This document shows positions 34,143 to 43,924 of a stretch of 64,000 nt of DNA, one piece after another (the stretch's first letter is position 1; every line of letters starts with the position of its first letter). Below the pieces are notes generated by a model. It ran no database searches, was not told the DNA's origin, and worked only from the letters and a program-made list of their open reading frames with translations. Source of the DNA: Achromobacter sp. UMC46 (GTDB taxonomy: Bacteria > Pseudomonadota > Gammaproteobacteria > Burkholderiales > Burkholderiaceae_B); contig NZ_LZZS01000037.1 of the NCBI RefSeq assembly GCF_014170335.1, positions 1 through 64,000 on the forward strand, read 5' to 3'. Made by a program: the position numbers and the translations under genes.

Positions 34143-34409
34143 ATGTGGGGCATTCGTAAGCGTCAGTTGGGCCAGGGCATGACGGAATACATTGTGGTCG
34201 TCGCGCTGGTGGCAGTGGCGGCGATCGCTGTCTATCAATACTTCGGGCAAGTCGTGCGTTCGCAAACCGCCGCCATGGCCCGGGAACTTGCGGGCGAAGA
34301 CGGCAGCACTCAAAGTCGCGCGGCGCAGCAGGCGGCGCAGAAGGCGGCAGCCCAGACCAAGGCTCGTTCGCTCAAGTCCTTCACCGGCAATGCCGCGGAT
34401 GCGAAGTGA
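34143..34409 (+). CDS. Flp/Tad pilin-like protein
   Basis: An 88-residue protein with a short positive N-terminus and a class III type signal: KRQLG|QGMTEYIVVVALVA, with Glu at +5 and Tyr at +6 after the predicted cut, as in Flp-type pilins. The hydrophobic helix is followed by a polar Ala/Gln-rich tail, longer than in most major Flp pilins. A GGAGAG ribosome binding site stands before ATG 34143. Its GTGA overlap with the next gene couples it to tadG. It is the only pilin-sized gene in the locus, so it is the likely major subunit. Confidence 0.82.
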   Translation: MWGIRKRQLGQGMTEYIVVVALVAVAAIAVYQYFGQVVRSQTAAMARELAGEDGSTQSRAAQQAAQKAAAQTKARSLKSFTGNAADAK

Positions 34410-35815
34410 CGTTACGTGGGCGCACGTGGGCCTTCCATCAACATGGCCAGGCATTGGTGCTGGGCATGTTGATGGTGTCGGTCGCCGTGGCGTCGCTGGT
34501 TGTGCTTTACAACCTGGGCCAGACGGTCGAGGGCAAGGTCCGGCTGACGCACGCCGCAGATGCCGCGGCCTATAGCGGCGCGCTGGAGCAAGCGCGCGCG
34601 CTGAATGCTATCGCGTATGTCAACCGCACGCAGATCGCACATCAAGTCGCGATGGCGCATCTGGTCACGCTGGCGGCGTCCGCGCAGTACGGCGGAGCGC
34701 TGCAATCACAGCGCTCCCGCGGCAACCCGCCAGTCAGCCTGATCGCGATGCTGTTCGGGCCGGACATGGCGCTTGCCTATCGGGCAGGCCAGGCGCTGCC
34801 GAACGCCGAGGCGCGACTGGCCAGCGCGTTCGCGCAGCACGATCGTGTCGTGCATCAGGTGCTGGAAGCCGCGGCGGCTTCCGCGATGACGGAACTGCCT
34901 GCCTCGCGCGGCCGTGTCATGCGCAAAGTGCTTGCCGCCAATTTCACGGAAGGAACCGTCAAGGGCGAAGACAGCGCGCAAGGGCTGACGTTGCAGATGC
35001 TGTCGGATGCCTGGCCGGGGTTCATCGAACGGCAGGTGGCCACGCGCAAATCGGGCCTGCGGCCGACAGTCGAGCAAGCGGTCGAGCGCTTTGGGTTCCT
35101 GAAAAAAAGGAATTCCACGCGTCGCAATCCCTGGGTGGTCAGCACGCGTTGCCCGCTTAACCGGCATGAACTGCGCCGCCGCGGGTCCACGTGGCTTGGA
35201 CCGGATGGACGCTGGGGGGCCTTGGATACACAGTCGTTCCATGCGTTGCGATCCAACCGATGGATCGGTTGCTATTACCGGGAATACGCAATGGGCTGGG
35301 GCACCGCGCAGGGCCAGAAGATCAAGGCGCCTGAAGGCGTGGATTACGTGGACGAACCGCCCATCGATTTTTCGCAAGAGGACTTCTGGCGGTGGGCAGA
35401 GCAATCGACGTCCTGGGACCTTTTCAGCGGCATCACCAATCCCATGGCCAATTCATACGCGATGGCATCCGCGCAACGATGGCCGGGCAGGGGCTTGCCG
35501 GCTTATCGCGAAGTCGCCGCGTCGCGCCTCCAGGATCCTCTGCGTTTTGCTGTGGTCGTCAGCATGGCGGGTGCCGTATTGAAAACCACGGATGCGGACA
35601 GCGCGCTGGCTTCGCCGGGCGGATGGTTCAGCTATGCAGGTTTGGGACGGACGGGCGCCATCATCGCAACCAGCGCCGCCGAGACCTATTTCTTGCGGCC
35701 CGAAGCTCGCGCTGATGGCCGCAGCGAATTGGCTACCTTGTTCCGGCCCTACTGGCAGGCGCGCTTGTCCGCAGTCAGAACCCAGGAAGTCTTGCTTGGC
35801 AGGAGGTCGCCATGA
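34406..35815 (+). CDS. TadG-like pilus assembly protein
   Basis: A 469-residue protein with an N-terminal QALVLGMLMVSVAVASLVVL span followed by TVEGKVRLTHAADAAAYSGA, the signature of the TadE/TadG-like family. The remainder is predicted to be periplasmic. The GTG start overlaps the pilin stop by 4 bp. In Tad systems these pseudopilin-like proteins are needed for assembly and are also processed at the membrane. A VWA domain, present in some TadG proteins, is not obvious here. Confidence 0.75.
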   Translation: MTLRGRTWAFHQHGQALVLGMLMVSVAVASLVVLYNLGQTVEGKVRLTHAADAAAYSGALEQARALNAIAYVNRTQIAHQVAMAHLVTLAASAQYGGALQSQRSRGNPPVSLIAMLFGPDMALAYRAGQALPNAEARLASAFAQHDRVVHQVLEAAAASAMTELPASRGRVMRKVLAANFTEGTVKGEDSAQGLTLQMLSDAWPGFIERQVATRKSGLRPTVEQAVERFGFLKKRNSTRRNPWVVSTRCPLNRHELRRRGSTWLGPDGRWGALDTQSFHALRSNRWIGCYYREYAMGWGTAQGQKIKAPEGVDYVDEPPIDFSQEDFWRWAEQSTSWDLFSGITNPMANSYAMASAQRWPGRGLPAYREVAASRLQDPLRFAVVVSMAGAVLKTTDADSALASPGGWFSYAGLGRTGAIIATSAAETYFLRPEARADGRSELATLFRPYWQARLSAVRTQEVLLGRRSP

Positions 35816-36447
35816 AGGCGCACGGCGGGTCAGGGCGCGGCTTAGCCAGCCAACAGGGTCAGGCGGTAGTGGAAGCGCTGTTGTTGCTGCCCTTGATGGC
35901 CATGATGGTTTGGGCCGTGAGCGGGATCGGCAATCTGCAATTTTCGGCGCAGCAGATGTCGCAGGCCAGCCGCAAGGCGGCGATGGCTGGGGCGTTGGGG
36001 CAACCGCTGGAGCCGGCGTGGTCCAGCGCATCGTCAGCGTTGAAGAGCCAGGCAACAGCATTGTCCGGAATCGCCTCGCCCCGCGTGCGCGTCTTGCAGG
36101 ACGAATGGTTTGGCGTGGGTTTGCGGTGGTTGTCGGTGCAAGCGAGAACCGCGCCCGTTCGTCATGACGCTCTGTTGGCGCCGTCGATTGTCCGCCAGAC
36201 CCGGGTGGCGATCGGAGCCGGGTATGCGCACGGGGATGCCGATGCGCGTCGTCGTATCGCCGGTGCGCCCACGGCTTGGCGGCAGGCTGAGCGCGCCTCT
36301 TTGGCGCAGGCGCGCCGGGTGGGAGCGATTGCGCAACGCATGGATGGCCCGTGGGGCCGGGCCGCGGTGTCGATGGATTGGCTGTCGCCTTGGGCGGACT
36401 TGGCGCCCGCGGACCGTTTGGGCAAACGTGGAGGGTTGATTCGATGA
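35812..36447 (+). CDS. TadE-like minor pseudopilin
   Basis: A 211-residue protein. Residues about 14-45 (QQGQAVVEALLLLPLMAMMV) match the TadE-like N-terminal helix with Glu at the expected place after Gly, followed by NLQFSAQQMSQASRKAAMAG. The rest has no clear domain. It overlaps both neighbours by ATGA. It probably acts as a minor pseudopilin for pilus initiation; this comes from family and position. Confidence 0.75.
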   Translation: MKAHGGSGRGLASQQGQAVVEALLLLPLMAMMVWAVSGIGNLQFSAQQMSQASRKAAMAGALGQPLEPAWSSASSALKSQATALSGIASPRVRVLQDEWFGVGLRWLSVQARTAPVRHDALLAPSIVRQTRVAIGAGYAHGDADARRRIAGAPTAWRQAERASLAQARRVGAIAQRMDGPWGRAAVSMDWLSPWADLAPADRLGKRGGLIR

Positions 36448-37223
36448 ATGCATGCTCGGCTTGCGGGTTTCGATGGAAACGGCGCGCGATGGCGGATCTG
36501 CGCCGCCTGATGCTGGCCAGCGGTTTGATGGCCGGGGCAGTGGGGCTGCCGGTGGCGATGGCCTCGGACGATAGGGCCGTGACGAAACCCGGCGCGGCGT
36601 CTTTGAGCCGATTGCGATTTCCCGAGGGCTCCCGACATGCGCTGCTGGCCGATCGGATGTGGCTATACGGCCAACCGGCCAAGGTCCTGGTGTTTGACGT
36701 GCCGATGAAATCCTCCGATTTGATCCGCCACCTGTCCGCGCAGCAATCCGGATTGGCTGATTTGAATGTGTTGCCTGGCCAACTGATCCTTTCAGGACGG
36801 ATCGGCGATGAGCAATGGGTGGCGCAGATGGAGGCGGCCGGTTCGGGGCGTACGGTCGGCAGCATCTCTTCATTGCGCTTGCCGGCATTGCCCCAGGTTT
36901 CGTCGCAGACATCGGCCCAGACCCTGCCCCAGGCCGTGTTCTCGCCGCCTACGCCTGCCTGGTTGCCCGAAGGTTCACGGTTGAGGTTGGACTTCGTGGT
37001 CACGGACGAGGGCGTCAGGGTGTCCGAGCGCATCTGGCAGCATGCGTTCGCACCGGTGCGGATGATGTCCGTTTTGGAAGCGCGCCTGTTGATGGATGGC
37101 TGGCGGCGTCCGGCGGACGACGGCAAGACGCAATCCTGGGAGCGGGGTCGCCAACGCTTGCGGATTTCGGTCGTGCCACTTGGTACCGGTAGCGGCCTTC
37201 GGGTCACGGGGTGGACGTCATGA
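36444..37223 (+). CDS. Uncharacterised exported protein of the Tad-like locus
   Basis: A 259-residue protein starting at ATG 36444 (ATGA overlap with tadE). Residues about 16-42 look like a signal peptide (RRLMLASGLMAGAVGLPVAM), and the rest lacks further membrane spans, so it should be periplasmic or surface located. A Pro/Gln/Ser-rich linker near residue 160 separates two parts. The last 80 residues (LPEGSRLRLDFVVTDEGVRV) end just at cpaB. I recognise no family. Its place between tadE and cpaB in a tightly coupled operon implies a role in the pilus machine. Confidence 0.7.
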   Translation: MNACSACGFRWKRRAMADLRRLMLASGLMAGAVGLPVAMASDDRAVTKPGAASLSRLRFPEGSRHALLADRMWLYGQPAKVLVFDVPMKSSDLIRHLSAQQSGLADLNVLPGQLILSGRIGDEQWVAQMEAAGSGRTVGSISSLRLPALPQVSSQTSAQTLPQAVFSPPTPAWLPEGSRLRLDFVVTDEGVRVSERIWQHAFAPVRMMSVLEARLLMDGWRRPADDGKTQSWERGRQRLRISVVPLGTGSGLRVTGWTS

Positions 37224-38071
37224 AGGCGTTGATTCTCCATGGCGCGCAGCGGTTGCGTCGTTTGGGCGTATATGGGTTGGCGTTGACGGCGGGCCTGGTG
37301 TCGGCGTGGGCCGTGCGCGAGCATGTGCAGCAGCGGGTCCAGGCGCTAGAGGCGCAAGCGCGCACGCCGGTCGTTGAACGTCTGGTCGCGGCCTATGACT
37401 TGCCCGTGGGCACGCGGTTGGAAGACATGCATCTGGCTGTCCGCGAAATTCCTGCCCAGTGGGCGTCCAGCGCCAGTCTGGATCCGCTGGATCTGGGCAG
37501 CCTGCTGGGTGCGACCTTGGCGGCGGAAGTGGCGCATGGGGAGCCCGTGCTGAAAACCCACCTGACTTTCACTGCTCCGGCGCCTGCATTGGCGTCGCGG
37601 CTTCGGTCCGGCCAACGGGCGCTTACCGTCGCATCAGGCGATCTTGGCGGCTTGGCAGAAATGCTGCGCGCCGGCGATCTGATCGATATCTACGTGAGCT
37701 TTTCACACCGTCAACGCGAGCTCACCGTGCCGTTGCTGCAGGGGATGCGGGTGCTGACTGTGGGGGCAGAGACCGACCCTGATGGCGGCGGCGTCGGCAA
37801 CATTACGTTGGCCGCCGAGCCGGAGGAAGCGGTGCGCTTTATCGCCGCCAGGCAGGCGGGCACCCTGACGGCCATGCTGCGCCACCGCGATGATGCGGCA
37901 GCGGTGAAAGCATCGACCCAGACGGATCTGGCGTCGCTTGTGGGGCTGGCGCCCGAGCCCAAGCCGATTCCAGGCGTGACCATCCTGTACGGGGATCGGG
38001 TGGATGCGCAAGCGCTTGCCGTTCCCGCAGGGCACGCCGCAACGAACGGCTTCGAAACGGGCCAGCCATGA
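37220..38071 (+). CDS. cpaB: Flp pilus assembly protein CpaB (RcpC)
   Basis: A 283-residue protein with an N-terminal span (LGVYGLALTAGLVSAWAVRE) and a SAF domain (VAAYDLPVGTRLEDMHLAVR), then a RcpC/CpaB domain with the AGDLIDIYVSF and TLAAEPEEAVRFIAA segments. CpaB is a periplasmic subunit that works with the secretin. ATG 37220 overlaps the preceding stop as ATGA; the stop overlaps cpaC in the same way. Confidence 0.9.
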   Translation: MKALILHGAQRLRRLGVYGLALTAGLVSAWAVREHVQQRVQALEAQARTPVVERLVAAYDLPVGTRLEDMHLAVREIPAQWASSASLDPLDLGSLLGATLAAEVAHGEPVLKTHLTFTAPAPALASRLRSGQRALTVASGDLGGLAEMLRAGDLIDIYVSFSHRQRELTVPLLQGMRVLTVGAETDPDGGGVGNITLAAEPEEAVRFIAARQAGTLTAMLRHRDDAAAVKASTQTDLASLVGLAPEPKPIPGVTILYGDRVDAQALAVPAGHAATNGFETGQP

Positions 38072-39432
38072 GACGCATCCTGTTGATTCTTGGCGCAGTG
38101 GGGCTGTGTCTATGGGCGCCCACGGCTTGGGCCGAGATGGAGGTGCTGGAACTTCAAGTCGGCGAGACGCGTGTGTTGCCGCATCCCGGTGTGACGAGAG
38201 TCGCTATCGGCAATGGTCAAGTGCTGAGCGCCATTGCGGCGGAAGGCCGCGATGTGGTGATCTTCGCGCGAGCGGAAGGCGTGTCTTCGGTTCACGTCTG
38301 GACGGGAACGGGGCGGACGACCGCTTACGAATTGCGGGTTGTCGCCGCCGGTGCGCCGCGCTTGCGCGCGGAGGTCGAGGCCTTGCTTGCCCGTATCCCC
38401 GGCGCGCGCAGCACCAGCGTGGGTGAGCGCATTCTGATCGAGGGCGACGATTTGTCCGACGACGACCGGGCCCGTATCGCTGCCTTGGCCGAACGGTATC
38501 CCACCGTGCTGGACTTCACCGGGCAGGTGGGCTGGGACCGCATGGTGTTGCTGGATGTGCAGGTGGTCGAAATTCCCACCTCTCGGCTGCGCGAATTCGG
38601 CGTGCGCTGGGATGGCGTGACGCAAGGAGGGATCAATGCGGGTCTGGCCTGGGACGCGGGGGCGCTGGGTCGCATGTCCCGGCCGGGCGAATCGGTGATC
38701 GAAACCGCCGGACCGGTATCGTCGGCCGCGGGCTACTTCGGCGTCAATGCGTTGTTGTCCGCCCGTATCGCCGCGCTGGCGCAAACCGGCGAGGCCGTGA
38801 TGTTGGCCCAGCCGCAACTGCTTGCGCGCAGCGGCGCCAGCGCCACCTTCCTGGCAGGCGGGGAAGTGCCCTATGTGTCGACCGATTCGCGCGGCAATCC
38901 CACGACCTTGTTCAAGCCGTACGGCGTGTCACTCAACATCACGCCGCGCATCGATCGCAACGGTGTCATCCGTTCCTTGATCGAGGTGGAGGCCAGTTCG
39001 GTGGACTCGTCGCTTAGCGTGCCGGGTGGTCCGGCATTGCGCACGCGCCGCGCGTCCACCGAGTTCAACGTGCGCTCGGGCAATACGCTGGTCATCGGGG
39101 GCTTCCTGTCGCGAGAGCAGGGGCAGGAAGTCAACGGTTTGCCGTGGTTGCAGAACATTCCCATTCTGGGCGCCTTGTTCTCGTCGCGCCGCTTTCAGCA
39201 GCGCGAAACCGAGTTGGCGATTTTCGTCACTCCCAAGATCGTGTCACAAAGCGAGCCGGCCATGGCGGACCGGATACGGCGGGGCCGCGACATGCTGGAT
39301 GCCACGTTTCCGGATCCCCCCCGGTTGGGCACGGCGGTGCCGTCGGTGGCTGGTGGTTGGGATCCCTATTCGGGGGCGGGATCCCAGTGGACCGCACGCG
39401 GTGATGTGGCTCGGAACCTTCCTGGAGAGTAG
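38068..39432 (+). CDS. cpaC: Tad pilus secretin CpaC (RcpA)
   Basis: A 454-residue outer-membrane secretin. After a signal peptide (ILGAVGLCLWAPTAWA) comes the pilus-type N0-like domain (VGETRVLPHPGVTRVAIGNG), a BON/N1-like part, and the secretin core with VMLAQPQLLARSGASATFLAGG, ending with the NTLVIGGFLSREQGQEVNGL and ELAIFVTPKI signatures. It forms the gate through which the pilus leaves the cell. It is followed 4 bp later by the FHA-CpaF gene. Confidence 0.93.
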   Translation: MRRILLILGAVGLCLWAPTAWAEMEVLELQVGETRVLPHPGVTRVAIGNGQVLSAIAAEGRDVVIFARAEGVSSVHVWTGTGRTTAYELRVVAAGAPRLRAEVEALLARIPGARSTSVGERILIEGDDLSDDDRARIAALAERYPTVLDFTGQVGWDRMVLLDVQVVEIPTSRLREFGVRWDGVTQGGINAGLAWDAGALGRMSRPGESVIETAGPVSSAAGYFGVNALLSARIAALAQTGEAVMLAQPQLLARSGASATFLAGGEVPYVSTDSRGNPTTLFKPYGVSLNITPRIDRNGVIRSLIEVEASSVDSSLSVPGGPALRTRRASTEFNVRSGNTLVIGGFLSREQGQEVNGLPWLQNIPILGALFSSRRFQQRETELAIFVTPKIVSQSEPAMADRIRRGRDMLDATFPDPPRLGTAVPSVAGGWDPYSGAGSQWTARGDVARNLPGE

Positions 39433-39436
39433 GGCG

Positions 39437-41125
39437 ATGCTTGATATTGAAATGACATTCGAAGATGCGGGCGTACGCCGCCTGGTGGCTGCGTCACCGG
39501 TATTGGTCGGGCGGAGCGCGCAGTGCGGTCTGCGTATTGCGAACTGGCGAGTCGGCAGGCAGCACGCTCGCCTGTCGCGCGAAGAGGAAGACGTCGTCCT
39601 GGAGGATCTGGGCACGCTGGCCGGCACGATGGTGAATGGCGTCCGGGTGGTGAGGCATGCGCCGGTGCTGCCCGATGACGACATCTTGATCGGCCCCTGC
39701 CGCCTGAGGGTGCGATGGGCATCGCCCGTGGAAGCTCCGCAGACCGGTGTGCAGGCGGATGGGCCGCCTGCGCCCGTTGAGACGGATTCCCTGCTCTCCG
39801 CACCCCCCGAGCATGCGTCAACACCCGTGCAGCCGGTGGCGCCGCAACGGCTGCTGGAACGCCGGAGGCTGCATGCGGCGCTGCTTGAGGGATTGGACCT
39901 GCGACGACGCGACGTGGCGGGCATGAGCGACGGCACGTTGCGCGCGGAGGCGGAACGCCTGCTGACCCAGATCGTGGCCACGGATGCGGACCTGTCCGCC
40001 GATGTGGATAGAGCCGCCTTGTGCCGCGAGGTGCTGGACGAAGCCGTCGGCCTGGGGCCGCTGGAACCCTTGCTGGCGGCGCCCGACATTACTGAAATCA
40101 TGGTCAACCGCTATGACGAGATCTATGTCGAACGTGCCGGGCGGCTATGGCGGCATCCTGCGGCGTTCACCAGCGAGCAATCCGTGCGCTGGGTGATCGA
40201 GCGCATCGTGACGCCACTGGGCAGGCGTATCGACGAGAGTTCGCCCATGGTCGATGCCCGGCTGCCGGATGGGTCGCGCGTGCACGCCATCATCCCGCCT
40301 GTCGCCATGAAAGGGGCAAGCCTGACCATCCGCAAGTTTCCGCAGCGTCGCCCCAAGATGGCCGATCTTATCGCGGCGTCGTCGCTCAGCGACGGCATGG
40401 CGCGGTTCCTGGCGGCATGCGTCCGGATGCGCAAGAGCCTGGTGGTGTCTGGCGGAACCGGCTCGGGCAAGACGACACTGCTGAACATTCTTTCCAACGA
40501 GATTCCGGATGGCGAACGCGTCGTCACCATCGAAGACGCGGCGGAATTGCGGCTGAACCACGATCACCTGGTGGCGCTGGAGGCCCGTCCCGCCAATCAG
40601 GAAGGCAGGGGGCATATCGACATCCGCGAACTGGTGCGCAACGCGCTGCGCATGCGGCCCGACCGGATCGTCGTCGGTGAATGCCGGGGGGCGGAAGCAT
40701 TCGATATGTTGACGGCCATGAACACCGGGCATGAAGGCTCATTGACGACCTTGCACGCGAATTCTCCGCGAGACGCCCTTGGCCGGCTGGAGTCGATGAT
40801 CCTGATGGCCGGGCTGGACCTGCCCTTGTCGGCCGTGCGTGAGCACATTGCAGCCAGCGTGGACCTGGTGGTGCAGCAAGCCCGTCTGGCGGACGGGCGG
40901 CGCGTGGTGATGTCGATCGTCGAAGTCGCGGGGATGGAAAGCGGTCGCATCCAACTGCTGGAATTGTTCCGGTACGACCGCGCGGCAGGCTTTCTTGGGT
41001 GCGGCGCCTTGCCCGGCTTCGCGCGGGAATGGAACGACGAAGGCATGACGCTGGACCCTGGCTGGTTTGCGGAGACCGGCGGCAAGCCTCCGGGCCAGAC
41101 GGGTGTCGCACAGGGGTTGCCGTGA
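39437..41125 (+). CDS. cpaF: FHA-domain fused pilus ATPase CpaF/TadA
   Basis: A 562-residue fusion. Residues about 1-95 form an FHA domain (VLVGRSAQCGLRIANWRVGR, then QHARLSREEEDVVLEDLGT, with the G-x-N/NG-type MVNGVRV end), which binds phosphothreonine in the family. After a Pro-rich linker comes the CpaF ATPase: Walker A GGTGSGKTT, Asp box VTIEDAAEL, Walker B IVVGECRG and His box TGHEGSLTTLHAN. The frame runs open upstream into cpaC, but ATG 39437 behind GGAGAG is the natural start. It drives pilus assembly at the inner membrane. The fused FHA is unusual, and no separate TadZ gene is present. Confidence 0.92.
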   Translation: MLDIEMTFEDAGVRRLVAASPVLVGRSAQCGLRIANWRVGRQHARLSREEEDVVLEDLGTLAGTMVNGVRVVRHAPVLPDDDILIGPCRLRVRWASPVEAPQTGVQADGPPAPVETDSLLSAPPEHASTPVQPVAPQRLLERRRLHAALLEGLDLRRRDVAGMSDGTLRAEAERLLTQIVATDADLSADVDRAALCREVLDEAVGLGPLEPLLAAPDITEIMVNRYDEIYVERAGRLWRHPAAFTSEQSVRWVIERIVTPLGRRIDESSPMVDARLPDGSRVHAIIPPVAMKGASLTIRKFPQRRPKMADLIAASSLSDGMARFLAACVRMRKSLVVSGGTGSGKTTLLNILSNEIPDGERVVTIEDAAELRLNHDHLVALEARPANQEGRGHIDIRELVRNALRMRPDRIVVGECRGAEAFDMLTAMNTGHEGSLTTLHANSPRDALGRLESMILMAGLDLPLSAVREHIAASVDLVVQQARLADGRRVVMSIVEVAGMESGRIQLLELFRYDRAAGFLGCGALPGFAREWNDEGMTLDPGWFAETGGKPPGQTGVAQGLP

Positions 41126-41967
41126 TGTGGTTGGCGGCGGCGAGCGCGATGTGTTGCGTGGCGATTCTGGCCTGGCATGCCCAGGCCTGGTTCTCGCCCG
41201 CGTTGCGCCGGTACCGCGAGCTCTATACCCAGGACGCTGGCGTCCGCTTGAGCGAAGTGTTCCTGTTCATCGATCCGGCGCAACTGTGGGTCGCTGCCGT
41301 GGCGTGCGCCGTGCTGGCGGCGGGGCTTGCATTGTCTGTGACGGGCAGCGGCATCGTGGCTGGCCTGTCAGCGGGGCTGGCGTCCCGCGTGCCTCGCTGG
41401 ACGGTCGACAAGCTGCGACGCCGGCGAGCAGACCGCTTCGAGCAGCAGTTGCCGATGGCGTTGTTGATGCTTGCGTCGGCATTGCGTGCGGGCGTTGCGC
41501 TGGCGACGGGGTTGCGGCACATCGTGGAGCAGAGCGGCGCACCGCTGGCGCAAGAATTCGGTTTGATGCTGCGTGAGCAGCGCATGGGCGTGCCGTGGGA
41601 TACCGCGCTGGAAAACCTGCATGCCCGGATGCCGGCCGATTCCACATCGCTGGTGGTAGCCGCCATGCGTATCGCCGCCCAGACGGGCGGAAACCTGGCC
41701 GAGGCCCTGGAGAGCATTGCGCAGACCTTGCGGGCGCAGTTGCAGCTGCAGGCGAAGTTGCGGGCGCTGACCTCCCAGGGGCGCCTGCAAGCCTGGATCG
41801 TCGGTGCGTTGCCATTGCTGCTGCTGGCGGTGCTGGACCAGTTGGAGCCGGAGATCATGGGGCTGCTATGGAACACGCCGATGGGGTGGGGCGTGCTGGC
41901 CATCATTGCCGTGCTGGAAACGGCCGGGGTCGTGCTGATCCGGCGCATCATCCGGATCGACGTTTGA
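41125..41967 (+). CDS. tadB: Inner-membrane pilus platform protein TadB
   Basis: A 280-residue type II secretion F-like protein. It has N-terminal spans, a cytoplasmic T2SSF domain (FEQQLPMALLMLASALRAGV and IAAQTGGNLAEALESIAQTL), and two C-terminal spans. The start overlaps the cpaF stop as TGATG. TadB and TadC form the platform on which CpaF acts. Confidence 0.9.
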   Translation: MWLAAASAMCCVAILAWHAQAWFSPALRRYRELYTQDAGVRLSEVFLFIDPAQLWVAAVACAVLAAGLALSVTGSGIVAGLSAGLASRVPRWTVDKLRRRRADRFEQQLPMALLMLASALRAGVALATGLRHIVEQSGAPLAQEFGLMLREQRMGVPWDTALENLHARMPADSTSLVVAAMRIAAQTGGNLAEALESIAQTLRAQLQLQAKLRALTSQGRLQAWIVGALPLLLLAVLDQLEPEIMGLLWNTPMGWGVLAIIAVLETAGVVLIRRIIRIDV

Positions 41968-42014
41968 TCCGGCGGGGATCCGATCCCGGTATCAAATAGG
42001 GAAGAGGGGGCGCG

Positions 42015-42884
42015 ATGTGGTTGCAATTGGGCATGTTGACGACGGCGCTGGGCGTTGGCGGGCTGGCGTGGTTTGCGCTGCGCCCGCTGTTGCAGGACAA
42101 GCAGGACGCGGCCGCCTCGTTGCCGTGGTGGTGGCGGGCTGCCTGGCCCTGGGTGGCGGCCGTCGCCCCATGGGTGGGGCCGCTTTGCTCCTGGCGCTTG
42201 CGCATCCGGCTGACGCGGGCAATCGAACAAGCTGCGTTGCCGGCCGGCGTGGGCTATGCCCACATCGCGGCATTGTGCGCAAGCGCCGCGGCAGGCGCGG
42301 GAAGCCTGGCGGCGGCAATCGCAGCGCTGGTAGATCCCGCCCCGGCCGCCTGGGCGCCCTGGATGATTGCGGCGGCGTTGGCGGCCGGCGTGGCCCCCGG
42401 GCTATGGCTACGCGGCCTGGGCGAGCGCCGCCGGCGCAGCATCGAAAGGGATTTGCCTTTTGTATTCGACATGATGACGCTGTGCGTGGAGGCGGGCTTG
42501 AGCGTGCAGGGCGCACTGCAACTGGCGGCGCAGAGCGGGCCGCGTGGCGCGTTGCGGGACGGCCTGGCGGACGCACTGGCGGAAATGCGGGCGGGGGTGT
42601 CCAGGGCAGCGGCGATCAAGGCCCTGGCCGACCGCTGCAATAGTCCGCTGGCGCGGAATTGGGCCGCGGCCCTGGCGCAGGCGGAATCGCTCGGCATCAG
42701 TCTGGGGCCGGTGCTGCGCGCGCAGGCCGCGCAGTGCCGCAACGACCGCCATGTCCGGGCGGAGCAACTGGCCATGCAGGCGCCGGTGAAGATGCTGCTG
42801 CCGCTGATCGGGTGCATATTCCCTTGCACATTCATCGTGCTGGCGTTCCCGATTGCGGTGCAACTGCTTCAAGGCGTGCAATGA
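42015..42884 (+). CDS. tadC: Inner-membrane pilus platform protein TadC
   Basis: A 289-residue partner of TadB with the T2SSF segment PFVFDMMTLCVEAGLSVQGA and ARNWAAALAQAESLGISLGP, and flanking membrane spans. A GGAAGAGGGGG stands before the ATG. It starts 47 bp after tadB, the widest gap in the operon, and its stop overlaps the DUF192 gene as ATGA. Confidence 0.9.
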   Translation: MWLQLGMLTTALGVGGLAWFALRPLLQDKQDAAASLPWWWRAAWPWVAAVAPWVGPLCSWRLRIRLTRAIEQAALPAGVGYAHIAALCASAAAGAGSLAAAIAALVDPAPAAWAPWMIAAALAAGVAPGLWLRGLGERRRRSIERDLPFVFDMMTLCVEAGLSVQGALQLAAQSGPRGALRDGLADALAEMRAGVSRAAAIKALADRCNSPLARNWAAALAQAESLGISLGPVLRAQAAQCRNDRHVRAEQLAMQAPVKMLLPLIGCIFPCTFIVLAFPIAVQLLQGVQ

Positions 42885-43525
42885 ACGGCCTCCGCCCGCT
42901 GCCGGCCGACCGTCTTAGGTTCGTGCGTGTGGCGACCTGGTGCGGCCGGATGCGTGGTTTGCTGGGACGCCAGCCGCCTGGGCGGCGGACCGGGATTCTG
43001 CTGATGCCCTGCGCCAGCGTGCATACCTTCGGGATGCGCTACGCCATCGACGTGGCATTCGTGTCGCGCAAGATGCAGGTGATCGGGGTGCGCAGGGCGT
43101 TGGCGCCCTGCCGCATTGCCCTATGCTTCGGCGCTGTGGCCGTTGTCGAGATGCGAGCTGGCGCGATCGATGCCGAATACGGAGGTATAGGCAGGATAGA
43201 AGCTGCAATACAGCACGCCGCCCGCCGCGATGTTGAACGGGATCTGCAAGGTGCCGGCGAACTGGGGCGACAGGCCCATCGTGACCAGCAGGCCGGCGCA
43301 CAAGTCGATGAACAGGAACACCAGGGCCCAAGTGGCGCCGTACACCAGGAAGGGCCACTTGTTGCGCCAGCAGGCGATACCGGAGAAGAACAGGGCCTGG
43401 ATCATGCGCAGGCCGTGCCAAGCCACCAGCACCGGCGCATGCCAGAACAGTGCTGCGATCACGACATAGATGATCGCGAAGATGGTCAGCGGAACGCGCA
43501 TGGCCATCAGGATGGGGTCCAGTGA
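42881..43525 (+). CDS. DUF192 family protein with antisense 3' extension
   Basis: The start overlaps tadC as ATGA. Residues 1-105 or so match DUF192: WCGRMRGLLGR near residue 20 and PCASVHTFGMRYAIDVAFV near residue 45, then CRIALCFGAVAVVEMRAGAI. DUF192 proteins usually end there, but this frame stays open for another 110 residues that lie antisense to the membrane-protein gene at 43121-43924 and look non-natural (Gln/His-rich). The stop may have been lost, or the extension is tolerated. The function of DUF192 is not established; it often accompanies secretion or pilus genes. Confidence 0.75.
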   Translation: MNGLRPLPADRLRFVRVATWCGRMRGLLGRQPPGRRTGILLMPCASVHTFGMRYAIDVAFVSRKMQVIGVRRALAPCRIALCFGAVAVVEMRAGAIDAEYGGIGRIEAAIQHAARRDVERDLQGAGELGRQAHRDQQAGAQVDEQEHQGPSGAVHQEGPLVAPAGDTGEEQGLDHAQAVPSHQHRRMPEQCCDHDIDDREDGQRNAHGHQDGVQ

Positions 43526-43924
43526 GCGCTCGACGGACGCGATCCGGTAGGCTTCGGCCATCGAGTCCATGAAGGGCAGGAAGGTCAGCAGCCCGGCCAC
43601 CATGCTCAGCCCGGCGTACATCAGGCCCATCAGGAACAGCTTCCTGAACACCCCTGGCTGCTTGAGGGGTTTGCCCCACATGGACGGCAGCATGACGCGG
43701 TCGGCATCCACGTGCTTGCACGCCGAAAGCGTCATGAGGGTGATGATGGGCATGAGCGCCACGACCAGAATCGGTCCGACTGGGGGCGTCGCGCTGGCGA
43801 AGACGACCAAAAGACTGATGAACATGGCCCAGGTGAACATGGCCAGAGGTTGCTTGCGGAACAGACGGAAACCGTCTCGGACCCAGTGCCAGCCGGATGT
43901 CGCGGGTAGGAATGCTGCTTGCAT
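43121..43924 (-). CDS. BPSS1780-type membrane protein
   Basis: A 267-residue protein with about six membrane spans (for example MFTWAMFISLLVVFASATPP and LTIFAIIYVVIAALFW) after an N-terminal WHWVRDGFRLFRKQPLAM, the pattern of the BPSS1780 membrane protein family of Burkholderiales. Function is unknown. The last 405 bp overlap tail to tail with the DUF192 frame. It starts 63 bp after thrB on the same strand. Confidence 0.85.
   Translation of the reverse strand: MQAAFLPATSGWHWVRDGFRLFRKQPLAMFTWAMFISLLVVFASATPPVGPILVVALMPIITLMTLSACKHVDADRVMLPSMWGKPLKQPGVFRKLFLMGLMYAGLSMVAGLLTFLPFMDSMAEAYRIASVERSLDPILMAMRVPLTIFAIIYVVIAALFWHAPVLVAWHGLRMIQALFFSGIACWRNKWPFLVYGATWALVFLFIDLCAGLLVTMGLSPQFAGTLQIPFNIAAGGVLYCSFYPAYTSVFGIDRASSHLDNGHSAEA

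Follow-up and report, generated by a model that had tools for sequence, protein, structure and literature searches.

The stretch of DNA considered here (the window) comprises 64,000 nucleotides of Achromobacter sp. UMC46, a member of the order Burkholderiales (contig NZ_LZZS01000037.1, positions 1 to 64,000; C37 in the contig numbering used below). At positions 34143-43525 it contains, as gene models read from the sequence, ten co-directional plus-strand genes for a compact Tad-like pilus machine. The motor ATPase of this machine, CpaF, carries an N-terminal FHA domain and the locus has no gene for TadZ (CpaE); across the loci compared below, TadZ and the FHA domain seem to have been exchanged for each other. 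The row of ten genes, from a pilin-like protein to a DUF192 protein, is as an earlier note on this DNA had described it, with gene models and Pfam in agreement and the pilin recognizable by its Flp-type site. Also as described there, seven of the nine junctions are stop/start overlaps, each of 4 bases (34406/34409, 35812/35815, 36444/36447, 37220/37223, 38068/38071, 41122/41125 and 42881/42884), the other two being a 4-base gap between CpaC and FHA-CpaF and 47 bases between TadB and TadC.

The first gene (34143..34409) encodes an Flp-type prepilin of 88 amino acids (aa) that has no Pfam match over cut-off; its site, LG^QGMTEY, has the Flp-type form G^xxxxEY, with glutamate at +5 and tyrosine at +6, and a slightly varied form of it recurs in almost every related locus with a pilin match, in the first pilin there. 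It is followed by a TadG-like protein with a GTG start (34406..35815, 469 aa; Pfam PF13400, Tad, 23.6 bits against a cut-off of 22.3), a TadE-like pseudopilin (35812..36447, 211 aa; PF07811, 25.3 bits, cut-off 22.9) and an uncharacterized exported protein, here called gene4 (36444..37223, 259 aa), with no match over cut-off in either Pfam or NCBIfam. Next come CpaB/RcpC (37220..38071, 283 aa; Pfam RcpC and SAF, as well as the NCBIfam equivalog TIGR03177 at 127.7 bits, cut-off 71), the secretin CpaC/RcpA (38068..39432, 454 aa; Pfam Secretin 145.8 bits, pilus N-terminal domain 47.9 bits) and the FHA-CpaF motor (39437..41125, 562 aa), in which the FHA domain, a variable linker and the CpaF core (T2SSE) follow one another. 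The platform proteins TadB (41122..41967, 281 aa, GTG start; Pfam T2SSF 70.8 bits) and TadC (42015..42884, 289 aa; T2SSF 59.1 bits) and the DUF192 protein (42881..43525, an open reading frame (ORF) of 214 aa; PF02643 39.7 bits, residues 19-98) complete the locus. The core of a Tad machine is therefore in place, namely a CpaF/TadA ATPase, two GspF-type platform proteins, a secretin and CpaB, and, judged by its sequence, the locus is real and intact. No ORF for TadZ, a prepilin peptidase or TadD lies between 30000 and 48000 of the window by models that detect them in canonical loci, which upholds what the earlier note had said of TadZ and TadD.

Two of the genes call for a further word. Gene4 has two halves that are alike in predicted build, its AlphaFold2 model has a mean predicted local distance difference test score of 78.5, and its structural matches (PA1624, DcrB and BamC) are weak. 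The DUF192 domain stops near 43174, and the rest of its ORF overlaps a convergent minus-strand ORF (43121-43924) by about 400 bases; the ORF is likewise extended in two near relatives (L126 and L127).

Within the motor, both domains sit in one uninterrupted frame of 562 residues, FHA at residues 22-84 with 49.2 bits (cut-off 20.7) and T2SSE at 203-481 with 208.5 bits; among 67 FHA-fused ORFs the stretch between FHA domain and core measures 16-214 aa, with a median of 64. The FHA-CpaF architecture is itself already published. In a survey of 292 CpaF orthologues, which were sorted into three classes, class III is defined by an N-terminal FHA domain and is mostly betaproteobacterial; its members are built of FHA, a disordered region, a three-helix bundle, the N-terminal domain and the ATPase, and E3HIW0 of Achromobacter xylosoxidans is an example (PMC12019362). 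The window motor has the same domain order, with an N-terminal FHA domain linked to a CpaF core, and, on sequence only, a conserved stretch that precedes the core bears on the question of the three-helix bundle. The available text of that paper describes the protein only, cites other work for the binding of phosphothreonine by the FHA domain and makes no mention of TadZ (PMC12019362), whereas the FHA domain of the window is without the phosphate-site serine. A canonical Tad/Flp locus, such as the one on contig C4 of the same genome, shares with the window homologues of the pilin, TadE, CpaB, CpaC, CpaF, TadB and TadC; unlike it, the window locus has no TadZ, TadV or TadD and adds the FHA domain on CpaF, gene4 and DUF192, although DUF192 is present in some canonical loci too. 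Because two locus-level features of Tad, TadZ and the peptidase, are missing, the locus is classed as a TadZ-less Tad variant with a class III motor. Searches of the main text of open-access PMC articles found no statement of an exchange between TadZ and FHA or of a TadZ-CpaF fusion, nor any remark on the absence of TadZ from class III loci or on a replaced serine in their FHA domains. What is new here is the apparent exchange of TadZ and FHA.

The apparent exchange shows in 129 CpaF ORFs, 67 of which are FHA-fused, 47 have a separate TadZ within 9 kb, six are fused to TadZ, nine have neither module and none has both. The 67 fused ORFs represent 66 distinct sequences and include one doubtful FHA match (L093) that was counted nonetheless; one of the 47 with a separate TadZ (L092) is doubtful, as it rests on a Soj/ParA-like protein; and the named and other samples may overlap, L053 and L145 having identical CpaF cores. 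Among the nine with neither module, L064, L072, L147 and L148 are second or other ATPases, L098 and L119 lie at contig ends and L139 has its FHA domain on a separate ORF, which leaves L096 and L123 as the only full-context Tad motors without either. TadZ matches in three FHA loci (L057, L141 and L150) were rejected, being response regulators that cover only model positions 1-68. No TadZ was found in any of the FHA-CpaF loci read, the mapping that the earlier note had proposed as a check.

Whole genomes tell much the same story. The order sample consists of 300 genomes, with a CpaF match at E<=1e-40 in 98. From 39 of these, 40 FHA-like regions were fetched, of which the one from G285 proved canonical and two came from G056; with the window's own, this makes 39 FHA-CpaF genomes. 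A 40th, G045, with its locus cut inside cpaF by a contig end, has no TadZ match and two kinase matches, and stands outside the 39-genome counts. In 29 of the 39 there is no TadZ at E<=1e-20, MinD-like partial matches aside (those below 95 bits were not scored as TadZ in this sample), and in each of the remaining ten TadZ adjoins an FHA-less CpaF. The class sample, of 369 genomes, contains 33 with FHA-CpaF (27 by model coverage, including the split G572, and six by locus reading), and 30 of the 33 are without TadZ at E<=1e-33; in the exceptions, namely G342, G383 and G000 (a genome shared by the two samples), TadZ lies beside a non-FHA CpaF. All 17 TadZ matches of the class sample adjoin a non-FHA CpaF, and a TadZ lies close to each of its 18 non-FHA CpaFs of Tad type, detected in 17 cases by genome search and in one (G359) by a local model only; not counted as Tad CpaFs were a fragment (G506) and five matches that start at model position 220 or later (G451, G561, G583, G482:C61 and G531:C96).

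In other phyla TadZ is itself fused to CpaF. Six ORFs of 716-753 residues have a ParA/MinD-type domain before the CpaF core in one frame: two from Omnitrophota (L066:4928-7087 and L080:2368-4545), three from Bdellovibrionales (L071:845-2995, L073:4876-7095 and L122:9173-11434) and one from a deltaproteobacterial bin (L070:9092-11263). By Pfam, residues 2-240 of L066 are AAA_31/ParA and residues 365-649 are T2SSE, and the other two ORFs scanned, L070 and L073, have a similar layout. The fusion accounts for two label changes on the CpaF-core tree. The fused TadZ occupies the same end of CpaF, the N-terminus, as the FHA domain of the window, and this analogy suggests that TadZ function docks at the N-terminus of CpaF.

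The locus type is widely conserved. Among the best 80 loci of the named-genome scan, which is not a census, the FHA type is represented in Alcaligenaceae, other Burkholderiales, Rhodocyclaceae, Pseudomonas, Acidithiobacillus, Lentisphaerota, Verrucomicrobiota and Myxococcota, and many of these representatives are metagenome bins. The notion of the FHA-CpaF fusion as a rare oddity was accordingly dropped, since it is widespread among relatives and already published. By models grown from the window and C4 loci, proteobacterial FHA loci have the common order pilin, TadG, TadE, gene4, CpaB, CpaC, FHA-CpaF, TadB, TadC and DUF192, and often continue past DUF192 with TadD and TadE; variants of this order exist (e.g. 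L049, L054 and L159). CpaC, FHA-CpaF, TadB, TadC and DUF192 occur in that order in 19/19 fetched class-sample FHA loci, and gene4 in 17 of them (four of the fetched loci, L167, L169, L174 and L185, being cut by contig ends). Gene4 is also found in 29/39 order loci and in 13/18 FHA loci of named proteobacteria, the remaining loci of that set being without it; its family, at E<1e-3, numbers 43 ORFs including the window's, every one in an FHA-CpaF locus. The pilins of the order-sample FHA-CpaF loci have a GQxMTEY site with small variations. Many relatives, though not the window, have an additional pilin-like gene that lies after gene4 (or TadE) and before CpaB and whose product has a GQSMTEY-type site (L048, L058, L060, L062, L063, L129, L130, L133, L143, L147, L148 and others). 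In one relative (L139:9264-11020, genome G219) the FHA domain has an ORF of its own, immediately upstream of that for an FHA-less CpaF, and in another (L173:9468-10508) FHA-CpaF is split across two frames; each is either a gene split or an assembly error. A long-branched second CpaF-like ATPase shares the locus with FHA-CpaF in a Myxococcota bin and another bin (L064:15165-17888 and L072:19078-20109).

Neither TadZ nor a peptidase is encoded in the proteobacterial FHA loci read, including 19/19 class-sample loci, and no FHA locus of the order sample has a peptidase inside it; outside the proteobacteria, FHA loci with a peptidase call do exist (L064, L067 and L077). The genome of strain UMC46 (6.68 Mb in 42 contigs) does, however, hold a second and canonical Tad locus on C4, with Flp, the TadV peptidase, TadE, CpaB, CpaC, TadZ, an FHA-less CpaF, TadB, TadC and TadD. 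The TadZ of this locus is the single match in the genome and lies beside the FHA-less CpaF. Two prepilin peptidases are encoded, TadV on C4 and another on C36, which reads as a probable PilD from its coaE- and zapD-like neighbours. The prepilin peptidase is thus missing from the locus and present in the genome of the cell: the earlier note was right as to the locus, but the absence does not extend to the genome, and the unlinked peptidase for which it advised a search is there. Similarly, PF01478 is over cut-off in 39/39 FHA-CpaF genomes, with a single match at E<=0.001 in 24. The simplest view is that prepilins are processed in trans, and the prepilin, TadE and TadG of the window would then be cut by a peptidase, in all likelihood of PilD type, whose gene lies outside the locus. 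The earlier note had also named two findings that would speak against its reading, a TadZ and peptidase set elsewhere that belongs to the same locus type and a separate FHA protein beside a complete Tad set. Both have counterparts in form only: the set found in this genome stands beside a canonical CpaF, and separate FHA proteins occur in some relatives as extras in TadZ-less loci and once, in L139, next to an FHA-less CpaF.

The FHA domain of the window is of a kind that bears on how it might act. In FHA domains generally, the serine of the SRxH motif contacts the phosphate. The best solved-structure matches of the window's FHA profile include GarA and OdhI; five alignments give VSRRH for FHA domains of the GarA/OdhI type, whereas the window has VGRQH at the same place. 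Gly40 thus stands where the conserved serine of phosphothreonine binding is expected, and Arg26 (GR), His43 and Asn67 (NG) are kept. The replacement is frequent among the relatives with a tryptophan at position 37 (Trp37): of 59 such FHA domains of FHA-CpaF (in one of them, L139, the domain is on the separate ORF), 53 have another residue in place of the serine, the site being alanine in 35, glycine in 17, glutamine in one and serine in six. Among 26 FHA-CpaF domains without Trp37 the serine is replaced in nine (alanine in five, glycine in four) and kept in 17, and the loci hold 16 further FHA domains on separate ORFs, of which 15 keep it and one has alanine; L093 and the partial L162 were left out of this comparison. 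This serine can be dispensable: Ser86 of OdhI and Ser95 of GarA are not needed for partner binding (PMC10415282). A second FHA gene follows DUF192 in six class-sample loci, all outside the Trp37 group (L167, L168, L170, L171, L184 and L185), and encodes a protein that measures 376-669 aa as read (L168 being cut by a contig end) and still has the serine of the SRxH motif. Of five of these proteins scanned against the YscD cytoplasmic-domain profile, three are clearly over cut-off, L170 is just over it and L171 is below. The serine pattern fits an ancestor with a phosphothreonine-type FHA system, the window's clade then having lost the serine and the second FHA gene.

FHA in place of TadZ, which the earlier note had put forward from the domain order, emerges strengthened by the 0/129 co-occurrence, by the lack of a TadZ match in most FHA-CpaF genomes and by the fusion of TadZ at the same end of CpaF, and it is the best-supported reading, although still an inference. 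In the literature CpaE/TadZ is termed ubiquitous in Tad, and a model for Caulobacter has six CpaE dimers ringing CpaF (PMC13170226). In the window's machine, TadZ would have been dispensed with since the ancestor of the proteobacterial clade; the FHA domain on the flexible linker of each CpaF subunit would give the hexamer a crown of six FHA domains round the motor, and this crown may fill the docking or positioning part that the dimer ring plays around the Caulobacter CpaF. With another residue mostly in place of the phosphate-site serine and with Trp37 widespread, the crown of this clade would bind its partner largely without phosphothreonine. Taken as a whole, a TadZ-less Tad-like (type IVc) pilus machine with a class III CpaF, in which the FHA crown takes the part of TadZ largely independently of phosphothreonine, has in our estimate a little short of an even chance of being right.

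Several observations weigh against this reading. The CpaF-core tree, a quick tree of 127 of the 129 ORFs (two with fewer than 300 model positions were dropped), unites the FHA-CpaFs of proteobacteria in a single clade, with a Shimodaira-Hasegawa-like approximate likelihood ratio test (SH-aLRT) value of 100 and 59 rows, of which 57 have the fused FHA domain, one has it as a separate ORF and one is without it. On that tree the FHA label needs five changes, and on a later tree three, so that the exclusion is mostly inherited. In a test of independent pairs on the later tree, from which L064_none, L072_none, L120_Zsepb and L093_FHA were dropped, the pairs on starred branches number two, with TadZ opposite in 0.7 and no difference in 1.3 (means) and a median p of 1. 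The exclusion holds throughout the data, rests on few events and has no significance. The member of the clade without FHA (L096:9962-11185, Idiomarina zobellii) has neither FHA nor TadZ, which indicates that FHA can be lost; there is no peptidase call in its locus either. Genome searches scored no more than a handful of top candidates in each genome (six at most for TadZ) and missed the TadZ of G359, so some of the TadZ absences may be misses. Genome G255 has an orphan TadZ of 404 aa (L186:7908-9122, on G255:C2), with its FHA-CpaF and canonical loci elsewhere and no Tad genes within about 8 kb each way (17 kb); it could serve the FHA locus in trans. Finally, the serine is kept in six of the 59 Trp37 sequences and the window retains Arg26 and Asn67, which makes phosphopeptide binding possible.

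That last point leads to the foremost alternative, a phosphothreonine switch, in which the FHA domain would bind phosphothreonine on a Tad protein or on its own linker, as set by a Ser/Thr kinase, and turn the motor on or off. Besides Arg26, Asn67 and His43, it draws on the serine kept in 17/26 domains outside the Trp37 group, on the second FHA gene of six relatives there, on the phosphothreonine-binding character given to class III FHA domains by citation (PMC12019362) and on the signalling that the Kil paper suggests for its FHA proteins (PMC8460266). Matches to the Hanks kinase family PF00069 at E<=1e-6 occur in 29/39 FHA-CpaF genomes, but they are no commoner there than in the others (212/261; 241 of the 300 genomes of the order in all), and ten of the 39, including the genome of the window, have none. 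The Ser/Thr kinase that the earlier note had suggested looking for did not turn up: in a search for this kinase type, PF00069 has no match in this genome that reaches the Pfam cut-off of 31.7 bits, the best scoring 22.8. FHA matches at E<=0.01 number two in the genome, the window's own and another that lies on C40 within an apparent type VI secretion cluster. Since, moreover, 53 of the 59 sequences of the window's own type have another residue for the serine, phosphothreonine control, the other role foreseen in the earlier note, is weakened for the window's clade; there it is possible but less likely, and we regard the switch as an unlikely explanation that still deserves attention. The gain of FHA and the loss of TadZ may, on the other hand, be unrelated events that befell one ancestor, with the FHA domain doing no more than tune extension and retraction through the linker. 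The few changes on the tree and their lack of significance are in keeping with this, as are L096 with neither module and the influence of the disordered N-terminal region of Caulobacter CpaF on extension and retraction (PMC12019362, PMC11300603); however, across many families no locus combines the two modules, and other phyla have TadZ fused to the very end of CpaF that bears FHA here, and we consider such a coincidence rather improbable.

The two other explanations carry much less weight. A TadZ encoded elsewhere might serve the FHA locus, as the TadZ on C4 could do here, as those of nine further FHA-CpaF genomes of the order could, and as the orphan of G255 could; yet the TadZ of this genome adjoins an FHA-less CpaF, and, unless TadZs were missed, the lack of a match in 29/39 and 30/33 FHA-CpaF genomes means that service in trans cannot be general, so that we give it little credence. 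Least of all do we expect a device for contact-dependent killing or secretion, rather than an adhesive pilus, after the manner of Kil in Myxococcus xanthus. The KilF motor has an N-terminal FHA domain, as does that of the window, but Kil has its own peptidase gene, no TadG, many FHA proteins and two clusters, and PilD is proposed as a possible processing enzyme (PMC8460266); the window, in contrast, has TadG and an Flp-type pilin, with no further FHA gene and no peptidase in the locus.

If the FHA crown does take the part of TadZ, the loci read together may say something broader about Tad machines: a TadZ ring would be replaced by a motor-tethered, phosphothreonine-independent FHA crown, FHA and TadZ would be interchangeable N-terminal modules of CpaF, found as FHA fused, TadZ fused and TadZ separate, and CpaE would not be 'ubiquitous'. 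This wider claim is tentative, and we think it plausible rather than probable. It would also urge caution, in that not every FHA domain need be a phosphothreonine switch. The FHA-CpaF loci form a large natural set of TadZ-less Tad-like loci with the same addition to the motor and, as such, would offer a direct route to the function of TadZ through the comparison and deletion of modules.

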